Origin: Ewingella americana ATCC 33852
GTDB taxonomy: Bacteria > Pseudomonadota > Gammaproteobacteria > Enterobacterales > Enterobacteriaceae
Direction of reading: 5' to 3'
Assembly: GCF_000735345.1 (NCBI RefSeq)
Contig: NZ_JMPJ01000026.1
Coordinates: forward strand, 62,001-126,000
DNA: 64,000 bases
In this document: positions 22,046 through 29,168 of the stretch, one piece after another
Layout: every line of letters begins with the position of its first letter
Numbering within the stretch: the first letter of the stretch is position 1
Translations under genes and position numbers: made by a program
Notes under the pieces: generated by a model
Databases searched by the model: none
Told to the model about the DNA's origin: nothing
What the model saw: only the letters and a program-made list of their open reading frames with translations

Positions 22046-22083
22046 GAACCAACAGACATCTTCACCACACACGGAGCGATGTG

Positions 22084-23064
22084 ATGAGAAACAAAATGTT
22101 GGCGCTGATCCTGGCGTGTTCCGCGAGTCAGGCATACGCAGGTTTTGACGTGGTGGCGCTGGGCGTTCACGGCGGCGTTGAGGAGGGCAATTTGACCTCC
22201 TATTTGATTCGCAGCGATGACCAAAAACTCTATCTCGGGCTGGATGCCGGTTCGGTTCTGCCGGGGATCAGCAAGGCGCTCGACAAGGGCGCTTTTCCTC
22301 AGGTGACGGCAGAAAACGCCGCGCCTTACACCCCGCAGGGCGCGGTTTTCCGCAATCTGATTGGCGGCTACTTCATCAGCCACGGCCATCTCGACCACCT
22401 TGCCGGGCTTATTATTAGCTCTCCGGAAGACAGTAAAAAACCGATTTACGGCACGGCCGATACCATCGGCACCCTCCGCCAGCACTACTTCAACGGCAAA
22501 GTGTGGCCGAACTTCACGGATGCTGGCAGCGGCCTGCGTATCGGCACTTACCGCCTGAATGCGCCGCGCCCGGCCCAGCGTTTTTCCGTCGGACTCACCG
22601 GGCTTGATGGCGTGATTTACCCCCTCAGCCACGGCGGCACGGCGTCGAGCATGATCCTGCTCAGTCGCAATAAAGAGTCCTTTGCCTACTTTGGCGATAC
22701 CGGCCCGGATGCCGTGGAGAAGTCGAACAATCTGGCGACGGTGTGGCAGGTGCTGAGTGCCGAGGTGAAAGCCAAGCGGCTCAAGGGCATCATCATCGAA
22801 ACCTCTTATCCCGACGACGTCGCCGACGGCAAGCTGTTTGGTCATCTGACTCCCGAGTGGCTGCTGAAAGAGCTGAAAGTGTTGGAAACCGGCAGCGGCG
22901 GCAAAGGCTCTCTCGACGGGCTGAGTGTGATCATCAGCCACATCAAGCCTAGCCTGAAAGCCGGTGAAAATCCGGAGGCTGAAATCATGCGGCAGTTGCA
23001 GGAAGGCAATGACCTTGGCGTGAAGTTTGTCAGGATGCAGCAGGGCGACTCGCTGAAACTCTAA
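22084..23064 (+). CDS. Periplasmic class II 3',5'-cyclic-nucleotide phosphodiesterase, CpdP-like
   Basis: Predicted to hydrolyse 3',5'-cAMP outside the cytoplasm. The protein has 326 residues and starts with a cleavable signal peptide (MRNKMLALILACSASQAYA). The metallo-beta-lactamase fold carries HGHLDHLAGLIISSP near residue 100, which fits the class II phosphodiesterase signature fully. Further metal ligands are in PLSHGG near 182, YFGDTGPD near 205 and the late SHIKPS histidine. The closest characterised example I know is CpdP of Vibrio fischeri, a secreted cAMP phosphodiesterase. The start is ATG at 22084; a GTG three bases earlier is less likely. It follows phr by 38 bases and may be read from the same transcript. 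Confidence 0.85.
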   Translation: MRNKMLALILACSASQAYAGFDVVALGVHGGVEEGNLTSYLIRSDDQKLYLGLDAGSVLPGISKALDKGAFPQVTAENAAPYTPQGAVFRNLIGGYFISHGHLDHLAGLIISSPEDSKKPIYGTADTIGTLRQHYFNGKVWPNFTDAGSGLRIGTYRLNAPRPAQRFSVGLTGLDGVIYPLSHGGTASSMILLSRNKESFAYFGDTGPDAVEKSNNLATVWQVLSAEVKAKRLKGIIIETSYPDDVADGKLFGHLTPEWLLKELKVLETGSGGKGSLDGLSVIISHIKPSLKAGENPEAEIMRQLQEGNDLGVKFVRMQQGDSLKL

Positions 23065-23109: not shown

Positions 23110-24558
23110 TCAGTCAACCAGCGGGCTGAGCGCCTGCAACAGCGGGTCTAACTGCGCATTAACCCGTTGATAAACCCGCTGATTAAGCTGGTTATACAAC
23201 TGATGGTGGGCGGCGTTAGGGCTGAAATGCTCACCCATTCGCACCATTTTCTGCGTGGCCTTTGCATAATCGTCGAACACGCCCACCGCCATTCCGGCAT
23301 TGATGGCGCATCCCACGGCGGCCGAGCCTTTCATCGCATTGCGCCGGGTGGGGATGCCAAAGATGTCGGCAAATATCTGCATAAACACGTCACTGTTGGC
23401 GCCGCCGCCGGAAATAATCAAATTCTTGAAGGGAATGCCCAGCTCCTCGGCCATCTTATCCATATGATTTTTCATGGTGAAGGCGATGCCTTCGAGCATT
23501 GAGCGATACATATGCCCACGGGTGTGGCGGCCATCAAAGCCAATCATTGCGCCTTTGCGGAACTCGGCTTCCGATGGCGGTGCCCAGTCATGTACGGTCA
23601 GCAGCCCCTCGCAGCCCGCCGGAACTTGGCTGGCTTCCAGATTGAGCAAATCTTCGATGCTCAAATCTTGCCGTTGGGCATCTGCCTGCGCCGCCGCGCC
23701 AAACTGGTCGCGGAACCAACTGACGGTCCACATGCCGCGCCGCACCCCCATGCACTCATACAAATAGCGGCCCGGCACCGAAGCCTGAAACGGCCAGAAA
23801 TTCTTCGCGTCCTGACGGTTTTCTTTGCCATGCACCATCGCGCCGATATAAGTGCCAAGCGAGATAAGCGCCACGCCCGGCTCCAGGGTTCCCGCGCCGA
23901 GCGCTTCGACGGCTTTGTCATGCGCCGTGGCAATCACCGGAATGCCCGCATGCAGCCCGAGGCGGCGGGCGGCGGCTTCAGTCAACGTGCCGAGCACCTC
24001 GCCGGGCTTCACCACGTCAAACACCGCATCGCGGGTCAGGTTGCAGCTTTGCCACTGCGCGGGATCGGTGCTCCAGTCAAGGGTGTCATTGTCCATCGGC
24101 CACCACCCGATGTAGTTGGCGCAGGTGTCGCGGAACTCGCCGGTAAGGCGATGGGTGATGTAACCCGAGGTGGTGGTGACGTATTTCACCCCGCGATACG
24201 CCTCTTGATACTCATAAGGCTTGTTCAGGCGTTTATCCATCCAGTTAATCACCGGATAGGCTAACTCACCGTTTTCCTTCAGTAAAACCCGGCAGCAGCG
24301 AATTACGCACAGCCCCATTGCCAGAATATTTTGCGATTTACCCCCCAACGCCTGAAAGTTCTCCATCACTCTGTTAAAGGCGCTAGTGAGGGAGGCCCAC
24401 AGGTCATCGTCGGGGTGCTCCGCCAGCTGCGGCGCGGGGATATCCAGCTTGCGCAGTGCCTGTTTCCCTTCACAAATCACATTGCCGTCGGTGTCGAAAA
24501 TCACCACTTTGGCACTCTGCGTACCGACGTCGATGCCCATTAAATATTTCTTGTCCAT
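23110..24558 (-). CDS. ygcE: FGGY-family carbohydrate kinase, YgcE-like
   Basis: Predicted sugar kinase of 482 residues. The N-terminal phosphate motif is MGIDVGTQSAKVVIFD at residues 7-22. The AEHPDDDLW segment is near 46, and the second ATP-binding half has SLGTYIGAM near 245 and the adenosine motif ISGGGANSDVFMQI near 385. It resembles E. coli YgcE, an uncharacterised kinase that neighbours yqcE and ygcW in that genome. Substrate is unknown; a ketose or polyol is plausible for the family. It is the second gene of the transporter-kinase operon, 29 bases after the transporter stop. Confidence 0.85.
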   Translation of the reverse strand: MDKKYLMGIDVGTQSAKVVIFDTDGNVICEGKQALRKLDIPAPQLAEHPDDDLWASLTSAFNRVMENFQALGGKSQNILAMGLCVIRCCRVLLKENGELAYPVINWMDKRLNKPYEYQEAYRGVKYVTTTSGYITHRLTGEFRDTCANYIGWWPMDNDTLDWSTDPAQWQSCNLTRDAVFDVVKPGEVLGTLTEAAARRLGLHAGIPVIATAHDKAVEALGAGTLEPGVALISLGTYIGAMVHGKENRQDAKNFWPFQASVPGRYLYECMGVRRGMWTVSWFRDQFGAAAQADAQRQDLSIEDLLNLEASQVPAGCEGLLTVHDWAPPSEAEFRKGAMIGFDGRHTRGHMYRSMLEGIAFTMKNHMDKMAEELGIPFKNLIISGGGANSDVFMQIFADIFGIPTRRNAMKGSAAVGCAINAGMAVGVFDDYAKATQKMVRMGEHFSPNAAHHQLYNQLNQRVYQRVNAQLDPLLQALSPLVD

Positions 24559-24587
24559 GTCAGGCTCCGGTAAAAATCAGGATGAAA

Positions 24588-25886
24588 TTAGTCTGCAAGA
24601 TGAGTCGGTAAAACGGTTTTGGCCGAGGCATTGCGGCTGCGCGCCATGTTGCTAAACAGCAGGGCGGTGAAAATAATCACCAGCGCGGTGGCGGCCAGCC
24701 CCATCAGCCACATATTGCGATAAGCCTCGGCGGCGGGCAGGGTGTCTTGCCAATGTCCGACCAAAGGATAGACGAAGACGTCGGGTAAAAAGCCGATCAC
24801 CGAGCAGATACCCACCGTGGTCCCCATAATGTACTTCGGCGTGCGCGCTTCGCCGATACAGGCGAAATAGAGGCCGCGCGAGGCGTAGCAGGCAAACGCC
24901 AGCAGCAGGATCAGGCCAACGCCGACCGCCACCGAAGTGGGATGCTGATTGGTGACCAGCAGCGCGCAGAGTGTCACCACGCTGACCAATGACAGCAGCT
25001 GGATCACCCGAGTGGGCGACTTTAACTTGGTGTAAGTGGTGATGATGCCGCCCCACGGGCCGCAGAGCGCGCGGAAAATTTTATTGATCACAATGCCCAT
25101 ATAGCTGGCGGCGACCAGCGACATGCCATACATCTCGGTTAAATAATTGGTGGAGTAGCTGAGGATGGCGAAGACGGTGTAGACGCCAAAGATGATCATG
25201 CTGCAATACCACGTGGTACTGATTTTCAGCACCGCGATGATGTCTTTCAGGCCAAAGGTCGGGTGTTGTGACTTCGCCTCTTGTGGCGCGGCGCGGGTAA
25301 AACCGTCGCTGACCAAGAACCAGCACAGCACGCCGAGCAGGATATAGGCCAGACTGTAGACCAGAATAGCCGCCTTCAAACTATTGGGGTTATCGGGTGC
25401 GAACAGCGAGAAAACCCACATGCTTAAGACCGCGAGGGACATCACGCCGACGCCGCGCAAGCCTTCCATCCAGCCCATTATTTTCCCCTGTTCCTCGTGG
25501 CTGCCCAATAATGACGCGGCTTTAATCGACACGGACCAGAGTAATAATACCGTGGTAATGGCAAAGGCAACTTGAATTAAAATCATCACCCACAGCGGCG
25601 GATAGGTAGCCATTAATAACCCCAGCAGGCCAGTAGCTATCATGGAAAATGTCATCATTTTGCGATGAGAAAACTTGTCAGCAATAATCCCGCTGGGTGC
25701 ATAAAGAATAATCGCCGCGATGCCGAAAGTGCTCATAATTAAGCCGATTTCGGTGTTGGAGAATCCCATAAATTTCGCCATGGGGATTTGATAAATATAA
25801 CGCAGGTAGGCTAAGTCAAAGCTGACACCGCCACTGATACTTATTGTGATGAGTGCCAACCAGCGACGAAAATTAGATTGTTCCAT
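24588..25886 (-). CDS. yqcE: Major facilitator transporter, YqcE-like
   Basis: Inner-membrane transporter of 432 residues with about 12 helices. The motif between helices 2 and 3 is GIIADKFSHRKMM near 72-84. The N-terminus (VSFDLAYLRYIYQIPMAKF) resembles E. coli YqcE, which also pairs with a YgcE kinase. It probably imports the substrate phosphorylated or oxidised by this island. The ATG has GAGG seven bases upstream. It is the first gene of the minus-strand operon and is preceded, within 36 bases, by an intrinsic terminator that should limit its expression unless relieved. Confidence 0.82.
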   Translation of the reverse strand: MEQSNFRRWLALITISISGGVSFDLAYLRYIYQIPMAKFMGFSNTEIGLIMSTFGIAAIILYAPSGIIADKFSHRKMMTFSMIATGLLGLLMATYPPLWVMILIQVAFAITTVLLLWSVSIKAASLLGSHEEQGKIMGWMEGLRGVGVMSLAVLSMWVFSLFAPDNPNSLKAAILVYSLAYILLGVLCWFLVSDGFTRAAPQEAKSQHPTFGLKDIIAVLKISTTWYCSMIIFGVYTVFAILSYSTNYLTEMYGMSLVAASYMGIVINKIFRALCGPWGGIITTYTKLKSPTRVIQLLSLVSVVTLCALLVTNQHPTSVAVGVGLILLLAFACYASRGLYFACIGEARTPKYIMGTTVGICSVIGFLPDVFVYPLVGHWQDTLPAAEAYRNMWLMGLAATALVIIFTALLFSNMARSRNASAKTVLPTHLAD

Positions 25887-25921
25887 GATGTAGCCTCAAT
25901 GTTCTTAGATTTATTCAGGCC

Positions 25922-25973
25922 AAAAAAAAGAGAAAAGCAAGCTTCCCACCAAAATGGGAAGTTACTTTTCTCT
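25922..25973 (-). terminator. Leader terminator / candidate YgcP antitermination target, transporter-kinase arm
   Basis: Minus strand: AGAGAAAAG-TAA-CTTCCCA, a six-base loop, TGGGAAG-CTTG-CTTTTCTCT, then T residues. A 9-bp outer stem and a 7-bp inner stem are separated by a 3x4 internal loop. It lies 36-87 bases before the yqcE start, in the transcribed leader. The stems and the 5' internal-loop TA are shared with the hairpin at 26128-26176 on the other arm. Confidence 0.8.
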
Positions 25974-26023
25974 TTATCTCTGGTAACTAAAATTAGTAGT
26001 AACACGGCGTTCTTCTTGCTTAC

Positions 26024-26039
26024 CGTGAGAATAATCACA
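26024..26039. promoter_or_regulatory. CRP-like site in the divergent ygc promoter region
   Basis: CGTGA-N6-TCACA, one mismatch from TGTGA-N6-TCACA. It sits midway between the two leader hairpins, where an activator could serve both divergent promoters. Confidence 0.55.
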
Positions 26040-26059
26040 AAATTGCCAAAGATTTTTTC

Positions 26060-26075
26060 TGTGATCCAGATCGCT
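26060..26075. promoter_or_regulatory. Second, weaker CRP-like site
   Basis: TGTGA-TCCAGA-TCGCT: a perfect left half and GATC flanks, but the right half has two mismatches. It is 36 bases from the better site. Confidence 0.35.
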
Positions 26076-26127
26076 TTATCACCGCGATTTAATGTGGTAC
26101 TTCTTTAAGCCAGTTACTAGAGACGAT

Positions 26128-26176
26128 GAGAAAAGTAGCTTCCCCTAGGGGAAGATCTGCTTTTCTCTTTTTTTTT
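26128..26176 (+). terminator. Leader terminator / candidate YgcP antitermination target, dehydrogenase-oxidase arm
   Basis: GAGAAAAG-TAG-CTTCCC, loop CTAG, GGGAAG-ATCTG-CTTTTCTC, then nine T residues. It ends 28 bases before the ygcW start. The outer 8-bp stem and inner 6-bp stem are identical to those of the minus-strand hairpin at 25922-25973, while loop and 3' internal-loop bases differ. A terminator between promoter and first gene implies regulated read-through. Confidence 0.8.
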
Positions 26177-26204
26177 GGTTTTTTTCCAGACAAGGAACTT
26201 CACC

Positions 26205-26990
26205 ATGTCATTAAATGCGCTCAACGAATTCTCGATGGACTTTTTCTCGCTGAAAGGGAAAACCGCCATTGTCACCGGCGGGAATAGCGGTTTAGGTCAG
26301 GCTTTTGCTGTCGCGCTGGCCAAAGCCGGAGCCAATTTATTTATCCCAAGCTTCATCATGGATAAAGGCGAGACTCGCGAGCTGATTGAAATGCAAGGAG
26401 TTCGCGTCGAATTTATGCAGGTTGATATCACCGAAAAAGGCGCACCGGCGCGGGTGATTGCCCAGTGTCTGGAGACTTACGGCACGGTGGATATTCTGGT
26501 CAATAACGCCGGGATTTGTAAGCTGAATAAGGTGCTAGATTTCGACCGCGCAGATTGGGACCCGATGATTGATATTAACCTCACGGCGGCGTTTGAATTA
26601 AGCCACGAGGCGGCGAAAATTATGATCCCGAATAATCAGGGAAAAATAATCAATATCTGTTCGCTGTTTTCTTATTTGGGCGGGCAGTGGTCACCGGCTT
26701 ATGCCGCCACCAAACACGCGCTGGCCGGATTCACTAAGGCTTATTGTGACGAGCTTGGCCAATATAATATTCAGGTCAACGGTATCGCGCCGGGTTATTA
26801 CGCCACGGATATTACGGCGGAAACCCGTAAAAATCCGGTCACCAATCAGCGCGTCTTAGACCATATTCCCGCCAATCGCTGGGGCGAAACTCAGGACCTG
26901 ATGGGCGCCATGGTATTCCTCGCCAGTCGCGCATCCAATTATGTCAATGGCCATCTGTTAGTGGTGGATGGCGGTTATTTAGTTCGCTAA
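26205..26990 (+). CDS. ygcW: Short-chain dehydrogenase/reductase, YgcW-like
   Basis: NAD(P)-dependent oxidoreductase of 261 residues. The cofactor motif is TGGNSGLGQAFA near residues 20-31. NNAG is near 100, the catalytic serine is in NICSLFSYLGG near 152, and the YxxxK pair is in YAATKHALAGF near 168. It is very close to E. coli YgcW, annotated by similarity as a 2-deoxy-D-gluconate-type dehydrogenase. Substrate is not proven. The start at 26205 has AAGGAA upstream and is the family start; the frame extends back into the terminator T-run, which cannot be coding. First gene of the plus-strand operon, followed by ygcU. Confidence 0.9.
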   Translation: MSLNALNEFSMDFFSLKGKTAIVTGGNSGLGQAFAVALAKAGANLFIPSFIMDKGETRELIEMQGVRVEFMQVDITEKGAPARVIAQCLETYGTVDILVNNAGICKLNKVLDFDRADWDPMIDINLTAAFELSHEAAKIMIPNNQGKIINICSLFSYLGGQWSPAYAATKHALAGFTKAYCDELGQYNIQVNGIAPGYYATDITAETRKNPVTNQRVLDHIPANRWGETQDLMGAMVFLASRASNYVNGHLLVVDGGYLVR

Positions 26991-27079
26991 TTCGTTATTT
27001 CCGGTGTGCCAGCGAGTGACCGGCAAGATTATATTTTTTTGAAAATTCATTTTAATTTAATAAGCAGAAAGGATCACTT

Positions 27080-28534
27080 ATGTCTTTATCACGCGAAGCT
27101 ATTGTTGAGAATTTAAAAGAGATCGTCGGCCCCGCGCAGGTGATCACCGATGAAGAAGTATTAAAGAAAAACAGCGTTGACCGTTTCCGCAAATATGCTG
27201 ATATCCATAATGTTTTCACTCTGCCATTACCGGCGGCGGTGGTGAAATTACAAAATACTCAGCAAGTCTCCGAGGTGCTGGCTTTTCTAAATCAGCATCA
27301 GATTAACTGCGTGCCGCGCACCGGGGCGTCAGCCACTGAAGGCGGGCTTGAAACCGTGGTGAAAAACTCGGTGGTGCTCGACGGCTCCGGGCTGAACAAG
27401 ATTATTAAGATTGATATTCGCAACATGCAGGCCACCGCCGAGTGCGGCGTGCCGCTGGAAATCCTCGAAAACCAGCTGCGTGCTCAGGGCTACACCACCG
27501 GACACTCACCGCAATCTAAGCCGCTGGCGCAGATGGGCGGTCTGGTCGCCACCCGCAGTATTGGGCAGCTCTCCACACTGTACGGTGCGATTGAAGATAT
27601 GGTGGTGGGGCTGGAGGCGGTCTTCCCCGACGGCACTATCACCCGCATTAAAAACGTGCCGCGCCGCGCGGCGGGCCCGGACATTCGCCACGTGATCATC
27701 GGCAACGAAGGGGCGTTGTGCTACATCACTGAAGTGACGGTGAAAATCTTCAAATACATGCCGGAAAACAACCTGTTCTATGGCTACACCCTCGACAATA
27801 TGCAGACCGGTTTCGACATCCTGCGTGAAGTCATGGTGGATGGCTATCGCCCGTCAATTGCCCGTTTATACGACGCGGAGGATGGCAGCCAGCACTTCAC
27901 CCATTTTGCCGACGGCAAGTGCGTGCTGATCTTCATGGCCGAAGGCTCGGCGGGCATCGCGCGCGCCACCGGCGAGGGAATTGAAGCGATTGTTGCCCGC
28001 CACGCCGAGTGCAAAAAGGTCGACAGCAAGCTTATCGAGGCGTGGTTCAACCAACTGAACTGGGGGCCTGAGAAAGTCGCCGCCGAGCGCGAGCAGATCC
28101 TGCGTACCAACAACATGGGCTTCACCACCGAAGTCTCCGGCGACTGGTCAAGCATTCACACGATTTATGCCAACGTGATTCAGCGTATTCGCACCGAGTT
28201 CCCGCACGCCAAGGACATCACCATGCTCGGGGGCCACTCCTCGCACAGCTACATTAACGGCACCAATATGTACTTTGTGTATGACTACAACGTGGTGGAT
28301 TGCAAGCCGGAGGAGGAGATCGACAAGTACCATAATCCGCTGAATAAAATCATCGTCGAGGAGACGATTAAGCAGGGCGGCTCGATGGTGCATCACCACG
28401 GTATCGGCAAGCACCGCACCCACTGGACGCGCGACGAACACGGCAGCGCCTACTATATTCTCAAGGCGCTGAAGGAAGTCTATGACCCACAGGGGATCAT
28501 GAATAGCGGCACGATTTACCCGATTGAGAAGTAG
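27080..28534 (+). CDS. ygcU: FAD-linked oxidoreductase, YgcU-like
   Basis: A protein of 484 residues, the same length as E. coli YgcU and very similar. The N-terminal half is a PCMH-type FAD domain with PRTGASATEGGLE near 78, GHSPQSKPLAQMGG near 140 and GAIEDMVVGLEAVFPDG near 165. The C-terminal half is an FAD-linked oxidase C domain, with HHHGIGKHR near 438 and DPQGIMNSGTIYP at the end. It is related to alkylglycerone-phosphate synthase, D-lactate and glycolate dehydrogenases, so a 2-hydroxy-acid or polyol-phosphate substrate is plausible. It has an AAAGGATC ribosome-binding site. The 89-bp gap to ygcW contains a short CCGGT/ACCGG hairpin. Confidence 0.9.
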   Translation: MSLSREAIVENLKEIVGPAQVITDEEVLKKNSVDRFRKYADIHNVFTLPLPAAVVKLQNTQQVSEVLAFLNQHQINCVPRTGASATEGGLETVVKNSVVLDGSGLNKIIKIDIRNMQATAECGVPLEILENQLRAQGYTTGHSPQSKPLAQMGGLVATRSIGQLSTLYGAIEDMVVGLEAVFPDGTITRIKNVPRRAAGPDIRHVIIGNEGALCYITEVTVKIFKYMPENNLFYGYTLDNMQTGFDILREVMVDGYRPSIARLYDAEDGSQHFTHFADGKCVLIFMAEGSAGIARATGEGIEAIVARHAECKKVDSKLIEAWFNQLNWGPEKVAAEREQILRTNNMGFTTEVSGDWSSIHTIYANVIQRIRTEFPHAKDITMLGGHSSHSYINGTNMYFVYDYNVVDCKPEEEIDKYHNPLNKIIVEETIKQGGSMVHHHGIGKHRTHWTRDEHGSAYYILKALKEVYDPQGIMNSGTIYPIEK

Positions 28535-28552
28535 CTCCCAACCTTGATTTTG

Positions 28553-28576
28553 GCGGGCAGAAAGCCTTCTGCCCGC
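28553..28576. terminator. Strong hairpin between convergent ygcU and ygcP
   Basis: GCGGGCAGAA and TTCTGCCCGC form a 10-bp stem with a four-base loop. It lacks a clear T-tract on either strand. Position between stop codons suggests transcript ends. Confidence 0.6.
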
Positions 28577-28586
28577 TCTATCACGC

Positions 28587-29168
28587 TTAGAATTTTAACT
28601 GCCAGACGCCGGTGTTGGTGGTGGAAACCGCCACCGCACCGGCATTCAGCGCGCCCACTGCGTCTTCATGGTCACACACCAGCCCGCCAGCAATAATCGG
28701 CAAATTTATCTTCTCTGACACCCATCCCAGCACTTTCGGCATGCAGCCGGGCAAAATCTCCACGCAGTCAGGATTCGACTGCGCCACCTGTTTATCAATA
28801 TTGTGGAAGGAGATGGAGTCGAGCAGAAACATGCGATGAATGCCGAAAAATCCCTGCGCCTTAGCAGCTTTAATCATCGATGCCTTGGTGCTAATGATGC
28901 CGTCGGCGGTGGTCACGATTTTCAGAAAGTTAATCACAATCTCTTTGTTTGAGGTGCCGTCCAGCAAATCGACATGGATAAAGGCGTACTTTTCAGCTTT
29001 TTTGATGCGCTGAACAATCGCCCCAATGTTGCAGATATTGCCATACAGCACGGAGATGATTTTGCAGTCAGACTCCAGCGCGGCATTCAGGCTTTCGGTG
29101 TCTTTGACGGCGGCGATAACCGGGTGTTGGTTGAGTAATTGCAAAATTGACAAGGTGACAGGCTCCAT
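28587..29168 (-). CDS. ygcP: YgcP, GlpP-family predicted RNA-binding antiterminator
   Basis: A protein of 193 residues with the (beta/alpha)8-like GlpP fold: QHPVIAAVKD near 14, FIHVDLLDG near 67, ISTKASMIKAAK near 95, CVEILPGCMPKV near 140 and PIIAGGLV with a final GAVAVSTTNTGVW. B. subtilis GlpP binds glpD leader mRNA when glycerol 3-phosphate is present and prevents termination. E. coli YgcP lies in the corresponding ygc cluster. The ATG at 29168 has no good ribosome-binding site; a TTG at codon 6, with GGAG upstream, is an alternative. The two leader terminators at 25922 and 26128 are its likely targets. Ligand unknown. Confidence 0.85.
   Translation of the reverse strand: MEPVTLSILQLLNQHPVIAAVKDTESLNAALESDCKIISVLYGNICNIGAIVQRIKKAEKYAFIHVDLLDGTSNKEIVINFLKIVTTADGIISTKASMIKAAKAQGFFGIHRMFLLDSISFHNIDKQVAQSNPDCVEILPGCMPKVLGWVSEKINLPIIAGGLVCDHEDAVGALNAGAVAVSTTNTGVWQLKF

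Follow-up and report, generated by a model that had tools for sequence, protein, structure and literature searches.

The two divergent ygc operons in the analysed DNA, a window of 64,000 nucleotides from Ewingella americana ATCC 33852, are each preceded by a leader that is an either/or switch, in which either an antiterminator hairpin or an intrinsic terminator can be formed. The system is most likely a GlpP-type antitermination switch that acts on both divergent transcripts of a single pathway. We consider it highly probable that both arms are controlled by two-state attenuators, that the antiterminator with its twin GAG motifs is held by YgcP together with a ligand, and that catabolite control is added by CRP. 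The two structures, their overlap, the covariation, the co-occurrence with ygcP, and the number of two elements per genome were all computed in this study.

Two mutually exclusive hairpins in each leader

The minus arm carries yqcE-ygcE, the plus arm carries ygcW-ygcU, and ygcP is located in the same island (Table 1). The gene names given in the original prediction are borne out by the identities to the E. coli proteins. YgcP belongs to the GlpP family, matching PF04309 with an E value of 1.2e-63 and 214.1 bits (curated cut-off 27) over profile positions 1-173 of 173, and the GlpP structure 3kts with an E value of 3e-29. PF04309 was the only match in the domain search of YgcP, and the RNA-binding and PRD domains of the BglG/LicT type were not found.

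Table 1. Positions of the ygc genes and of the leader features in the window.
Feature	Position	Strand	Description	Basis
ygcE	23110..24558	-	FGGY-family kinase	48% identity to E. coli YgcE
yqcE	24588..25886	-	MFS transporter; first gene of the minus arm	77% identity to E. coli YqcE
yqcE-arm intrinsic terminator	25922..25972	-	Stem 25972-25930; U-tract 25929-25922	Sequence, folding, terminator scan
yqcE-arm antiterminator hairpin	25960..25988	-	5' arm AGTTAC(C) 25988-25982; loop AGAGATAAAGAGAAA; 3' arm (A)GTAACT 25966-25960; innermost C.A unpaired	Sequence, covariation, folding
CRP-like site, yqcE side	26025..26039	-	GTGAGAATAATCACA on the plus strand; centre ~44 bp before the yqcE antiterminator	By eye
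CRP-like site, ygcW side	26060..26074	+	TGTGATCCAGATCGC; centre ~45 bp before the ygcW antiterminator; one mismatch in the right half	By eye
ygcW-arm antiterminator hairpin	26112..26140	+	5' arm AGTTACT 26112-26118; loop AGAGACGATGAGAAA 26119-26133; 3' arm AGTAGCT 26134-26140	Sequence, covariation, folding
ygcW-arm intrinsic terminator	26128..26176	+	Stem 26128-26167; U-tract 26168-26176; cannot coexist with the antiterminator	Sequence, folding, terminator scan
ygcW	26205..26990	+	SDR oxidoreductase; first gene of the plus arm	86% identity to E. coli YgcW
ygcU	27080..28534	+	FAD-linked oxidase	81% identity to E. coli YgcU
ygcP	28587..29168	-	G3P_antiterm (PF04309); predicted trans-acting antiterminator; start codon position approximate	75% identity to E. 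coli YgcP

The genes ygcN, ygcO, ygcQ, ygcR, and ygcS were not found in the window, where the island spans 23110-29168; the full set of these five genes is carried by a relative of the same genus. The regulator and both switched arms are retained. The island is flanked by photolyase-like and YbgI-like genes according to the open reading frames, and by queD/queE in E. coli. Beside it, positions 22081-23064 encode what by eye appears to be a secreted enzyme of the metallo-beta-lactamase fold, for which no NCBIfam match was obtained. In 5,426 complete E. coli genomes, ygcP was found in 5,068 and the yqcE-ygcW intergenic region, counted separately, in 5,018.

Matched terminators had been claimed for the yqcE-ygcE and ygcW-ygcU leaders, with identical outer 8 bp and inner 6 bp and with 3' internal-loop segments that differ (4 vs 5 bases). 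Direct reading of the sequence confirmed the location and each of these details. The minus leader reads GAGAAAAG-TAA-CTTCCC-ATTTTGGT-GGGAAG-CTTG-CTTTTCTC-T8, and the plus leader reads GAGAAAAG-TAG-CTTCCC-CTAG-GGGAAG-ATCTG-CTTTTCTC-T9. The folding energy was -24.9 kcal/mol for the plus terminator (z -3.8) and -30.0 kcal/mol for the minus terminator (z -6.3), and none of 200 shuffles was as good in either case. Six terminator-like sites were counted on both strands, compared with a shuffle mean of 0.2. In both arms, the leader of the operon contains an intrinsic terminator, as expected of a GlpP system.

The match between the leaders extends 16 nt upstream of the terminator stems, beyond the element of the original prediction. 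AGTTACCAGAGATAAAGAGAAAAGTAACTTCCC of the minus leader and AGTTACTAGAGACGATGAGAAAAGTAGCTTCCC of the plus leader form a 33-nt inverted repeat, 85% complementary. The 16 upstream bases of each leader (AGTTACY, then AGAG) are outside the terminator stem, and most of them are almost invariant. AGTTACY can pair with RGTARCT inside the 5' arm of the terminator to form an antiterminator of 6-7 bp, the loop of which contains two GAG(A) motifs. The partner of AGTTAC is GTAACT in the minus leader and GTAGCT, with one G.U pair, in the plus leader. Since the 3' arm of the antiterminator and the second GAGA are part of the 5' strand of the terminator, the two folds cannot coexist. The same double use of the strand explains why the terminator stems are nearly identical. 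The complete switch is ~65 nt in length.

At the transcript lengths that were folded between 29 and 45 nt, the antiterminator was part of the most stable structure, with one exception, the minus leader at 41 nt. In the growing transcript, the antiterminator is formed first, and parts of the terminator prevail from 49 nt. When the antiterminator was forced at full length, the energies were -10.1 and -9.8 kcal/mol, compared with -24.0 and -30.0 kcal/mol without forcing. Keeping it at full length costs ~14 to 20 kcal/mol, which indicates that a stabiliser is needed. Similarly, the isolated antiterminator hairpin was not more stable than its shuffles (z -1.1 and -1.2), so something must hold the hairpin.

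Conservation, covariation, and co-occurrence with ygcP

The ygcP loci were collected with an alignment of five YgcP sequences, one genome per species, and the best 80 of 305 confirmed relatives were used. These were 42 loci of the Enterobacterales type and 38 others, which are titled Firmicutes apart from one titled plain 'bacterium' that was counted with them. One record titled Chryseobacterium carries such a ygc island; it was counted as the Enterobacterales type and is probably mislabelled or contaminated. By a regular expression, 40 of the 42 Enterobacterales-type loci were found to have the element in each arm, and for the two loci that were missed (L028 and L049), a divergent pair was located elsewhere by a whole-genome scan. 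Absence or poor conservation of the hairpins in relatives carrying ygcP, the outcome named beforehand as speaking against the switch, was not observed among the Enterobacterales-type loci.

For the alignment, 89 element matches were reduced to 78 distinct elements; L028 and L049 contributed none, and L094 and L096 were left out. The terminator helix was paired in 99.7%, and the antiterminator helix was paired in 93.4% of its 546 cells. Pair 2-32 is formed by G-C in 49 of the 78 elements and by A-U in 28, pair 7-27 by U-A in 51 and by C-G in 23, and pair 5-29 by A-U in 77 and by G-C in one. Compensatory double changes are therefore present at three of the seven antiterminator pairs. The double-changed cells numbered 52, compared with 18.9 in shuffles, although the 78 elements are related by descent and the double changes are a few evolutionary events inherited by many. 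None of 500 shuffles reached this number, and none reached the share of paired cells. When the partner strand was slid by 1-3 columns, the antiterminator pairing fell to 14-53%. This covariation is located in the antiterminator helix.

Other measures did not exceed the controls. The count of three double-changed pairs was not above the shuffles (mean 2.4, with 207 of 500 as high), and additional pair types in the antiterminator helix were fewer than in the shuffles. Four double-changed pairs were obtained with the slide of +3, though the pairing there was just 30%. Element positions 3-11 are not part of the terminator; with the exception of position 7, which belongs to a covarying pair, each is 91-100% constant. 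The outermost antiterminator pair is unpaired in 31 of 78 elements, and the minus leader of the window is among the four with C.A as the innermost pair. In one Firmicute ygcW leader (L222), the stem is AATTACT/AGTAATT, and the swap from G-C to A-U was apparently independent of that in Enterobacterales.

Within the order Enterobacterales, 295 drawn genomes were searched with PF04309 and with a covariance model of the element. PF04309 matched above the cut-off in four genomes and below it in five more. Strong elements, two each, were found in the same four genomes with YgcP above the cut-off. These four matches are given by construction, their elements having been used to build the model, and the independent result is the absence from the other 291 genomes under filters strict enough to drop weak matches. 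The only other matching genome was G180; its match of 27.7 bits was considered as a further target and looks like chance.

Exactly two strong elements were present in each of the 24 genomes scanned whole, which comprise the genome of the window and 23 genomes from the set of 42 loci, L028 and L049 among them. A third strong element was not found in any of these 24 genomes; the weaker matches came mostly from the strand opposite the elements, and the rest were scattered and scored at most ~23 bits. In Halobacillus and Thalassobacillus, the whole-genome scans gave one strong element each, and ygcW is preceded by the same element. One Halobacillus locus (L057) has the element before ygcW-ygcE-ygcU, with ygcP divergent. 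The link between a two-arm antitermination switch and YgcP, as originally predicted, is supported by the presence of the element at both arms of the ygcP loci and by the restriction of strong elements to the YgcP carriers of the draw; the RNA structure predicted for recognition by YgcP is a separate matter and is considered below.

The same architecture beside GlpP-family genes in Firmicutes

A second PF04309 protein is encoded in both Halobacillus and Thalassobacillus. In Halobacillus, the gene adjoins what we take to be glpF, glpK, and glpD, which were recognised from their sequences and not by a family search. The glpD leaders there share the layout of the ygc leaders but have a different stem, such as GGTC-GGAGATTTGGAGA-GACC. 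The exact glpD-type pattern was found in just two of 199 genomes of the phylum, of which 72 have a PF04309 protein above the cut-off. Since this pattern was nearly empty, the architecture was tested instead of the stem letters. The first scan of Firmicutes demanded the stem and was biased; it was replaced by two stem-blind samples. Around PF04309 genes, leaders were selected by a twin-GAG motif that runs into a strong terminator before a gene, and identical leaders were merged.

Of the 111 loci in sample 1, 66 yielded a total of 86 distinct leaders, and the other 45 gave none. At least four Watson-Crick pairs flank the motif in 49 of the 86 leaders, compared with 16.2 (sd 3.3, maximum 27) over 500 flank swaps. 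These 49 leaders have 24 different inner 4-nt stems. Sample 1 includes the loci where the pattern was first noticed, and sample 2 was taken with the same selection from 40 new loci in a phylum-wide draw. At least four pairs were found in 22 of its 32 leaders, compared with 7.6 (sd 2.2, maximum 13 of 500), and 19 of the 40 loci gave no leader. A Watson-Crick stem of 4 bp is lacking in 37 of the 86 and 10 of the 32 leaders, respectively. Applied to 52 kb of the window away from the island, the same selection gave one leader, which has no such stem. An antiterminator alternative to the terminator, as beside GlpP genes, is thus indicated by the covariation in the ygc elements and by many, not all, of the selected Firmicute leaders.

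It is likely that the ygc leaders exemplify an RNA code shared across the family of GlpP-type antiterminators. The code would consist of any stem of ~4-8 bp, a loop in which two GAG(A) motifs are separated by a few nucleotides, and a 3' arm that doubles as the 5' strand of the terminator. If so, E. coli YgcP would be a Gram-negative member of the family with a defined two-transcript regulon, and cells with two paralogues, such as Halobacillus with its ygc and glp copies, would have to separate nearly identical loops by the stem or the loop edges.

Proposed mechanism, alternatives, and known systems

The 30 bases that precede the hairpin are poorly conserved; the commonest base mostly accounts for 29-64%, except at -14, -12, -7, and -1. 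These exceptions include an apparent extended -10 element, and since this element is conserved, the transcription start is placed near the first base of the hairpin. No promoter was found in a sigma-70 consensus scan of 25880-26215. A CRP-like site is present before each antiterminator (Table 1); both were identified with a motif that we take to be the CRP consensus. The ygcW<>yqcE region is one of the targets listed by a Genomic SELEX study of CRP (PMC3105977), and ygcW and yqcE are ranked in the real-data table of PhyloScan, which comes from a scan for Crp and PurR (PMC1794230).

We propose that RNA polymerase starts at about the first base of AGTTACY. The first ~29 nt would fold as the weak antiterminator, whose loop would present the two GAG(A) motifs. 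If the hairpin is left unbound, the terminator would take the 3' arm of the antiterminator and the second GAGA as its own 5' strand, displace the antiterminator, and stop transcription. YgcP carrying its ligand would bind the twin-GAG hairpin and hold the antiterminator, and read-through would follow on both arms at once. CRP at both promoters would add catabolite control. The ligand is probably a phosphorylated compound of this pathway, for example one made by the YgcE kinase. This is a fair guess and no more, drawn by analogy: GlpP responds to glycerol-3-phosphate, and YgcE is a kinase of the FGGY family.

The GlpP system of B. subtilis (glpD, glpFK, and glpT) is the closest comparison, with YgcP homologous to GlpP. 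GlpP is described as binding leader RNA and disrupting leader terminators, with read-through in the presence of glycerol-3-phosphate (PMC9604022); leader terminators are present in the ygc operons as well. According to a review, the antiterminator is bound by GlpP carrying glycerol-3-phosphate (PMC7430163). The antiterminator structure of B. subtilis GlpP may already be described in the GlpP papers of 1991-2002 or in Chen et al. 2021. The twin-GAG hairpin overlapping a terminator was seen here beside GlpP genes of Firmicutes other than B. subtilis. The ygc system differs in that its targets are yqcE-ygcE and ygcW-ygcU and not glycerol operons, in its Gram-negative hosts, in its CRP-like sites and two divergent arms, and in its stem of 6-7 bp with a TTAC/GTAR core.

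The RAT of the BglG/SacY/LicT systems is likewise a weak hairpin of ~30 nt that overlaps the 5' half of the terminator and is stabilised by protein. However, these proteins belong to a family other than that of YgcP, which matches PF04309 alone. As described in the same review, the LicT RAT is a stem with two bulges, whereas the ygc hairpin has a single large loop with two GAG motifs (PMC7430163).

It is also conceivable, but rather unlikely, that YgcP recognises the two GAG(A) motifs in single-stranded form and masks the 5' strand of the terminator, with the flanking helix only aiding. The loop motifs are common to the GlpP-type leaders while the stems vary, the motif having been the selection criterion there. 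TRAP and HutP are ring-like oligomers that read many repeats, while the ygc leaders have two GAG motifs in a hairpin loop. The two proteins are not known to be related to YgcP. Both are ligand-activated and recognise spaced GAG/NAG triplets in leaders, as stated in the review (PMC7430163), which agrees with binding of this kind. However, in both Firmicute samples the pairing of the flanks greatly exceeds chance, and the helix covaries in the ygc elements; together these results indicate that the hairpin matters.

The original prediction had taken the asymmetric-bulge terminator hairpin itself as the target that YgcP melts or blocks. The near-identical stems in both arms, the almost invariant stem base, and a bulge or internal loop of some kind in 56 of the 78 folded terminators agree with this proposal. 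However, the remaining 22 terminators have neither a bulge nor an internal loop, for which reason the asymmetric bulge was rejected as the recognition site, and the terminator loops and upper stems vary between arms and between genomes. The almost invariant TTAC and AGAG, which are upstream and outside the terminator (segment AGTTACYAGAGA), would stay unexplained, and these letters form an alternative helix that covaries. Binding to the terminator is therefore improbable.

It is still less probable that the leaders are ordinary attenuators or protein-free riboswitches, in which the signal is sensed by the RNA or by ribosomes and YgcP is a mere neighbour. The leaders are short, and many attenuators work without a dedicated protein. 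However, ~29 nt before the terminator would leave little room for an aptamer, and at gathering score no Rfam match was obtained over the elements in the window or over the ygc/glp leaders of eight loci. Strong elements are missing from the 291 drawn genomes that have no YgcP above the cut-off, in Firmicutes the elements accompany ygcP, and GlpP is reported as an antiterminator (PMC9604022). Finally, each arm is an inverted repeat of the other, and in some genomes (L017 and L019) the terminator loops are identical too, but a mere recent inverted copy with no shared regulator is hardly credible, since two elements are retained in 42 of 42 Enterobacterales-type cases (40 by locus, two by genome) while the upstream positions vary, so that selection seems to keep the elements.

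The preferred reading, in which YgcP holds the twin-GAG antiterminator, gives YgcP a concrete candidate RNA target and a predicted regulon of two transcripts, proposes how RNA may be recognised by GlpP-family proteins, and describes a small switch. No publication mentioning ygcP together with an antiterminator was found in a search of the open literature, nor was a description of the substrate of the ygc pathway. A screen for inducers acting through the ygc leaders could reveal this substrate.

Further arrangements were noticed around PF04309 genes. In G296 and other genomes of its order, it is common to find two to four PF04309 matches per genome, so several antiterminators with similar RNA targets may need separating there. 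Tandem modules of a twin-GAG hairpin and terminator precede glpF-like genes in L228 (6406 and 6499) and L232 (8116 and 8195), which suggests double attenuators. In Clostridia, a twin-GAG hairpin and terminator are located directly 5' of the PF04309 gene in L064 at 9892 (the same place as L105 at 6462), L071 at 129, L073 at 9892, L081 at 9058, and L090 at 9896, which suggests autoregulation. Similar modules near PF04309 paralogues in L140 (1145), L154 (6565 and 9641), and L145 (3269) precede genes that do not look glycerol-related and by eye appear HAD-like or secreted.
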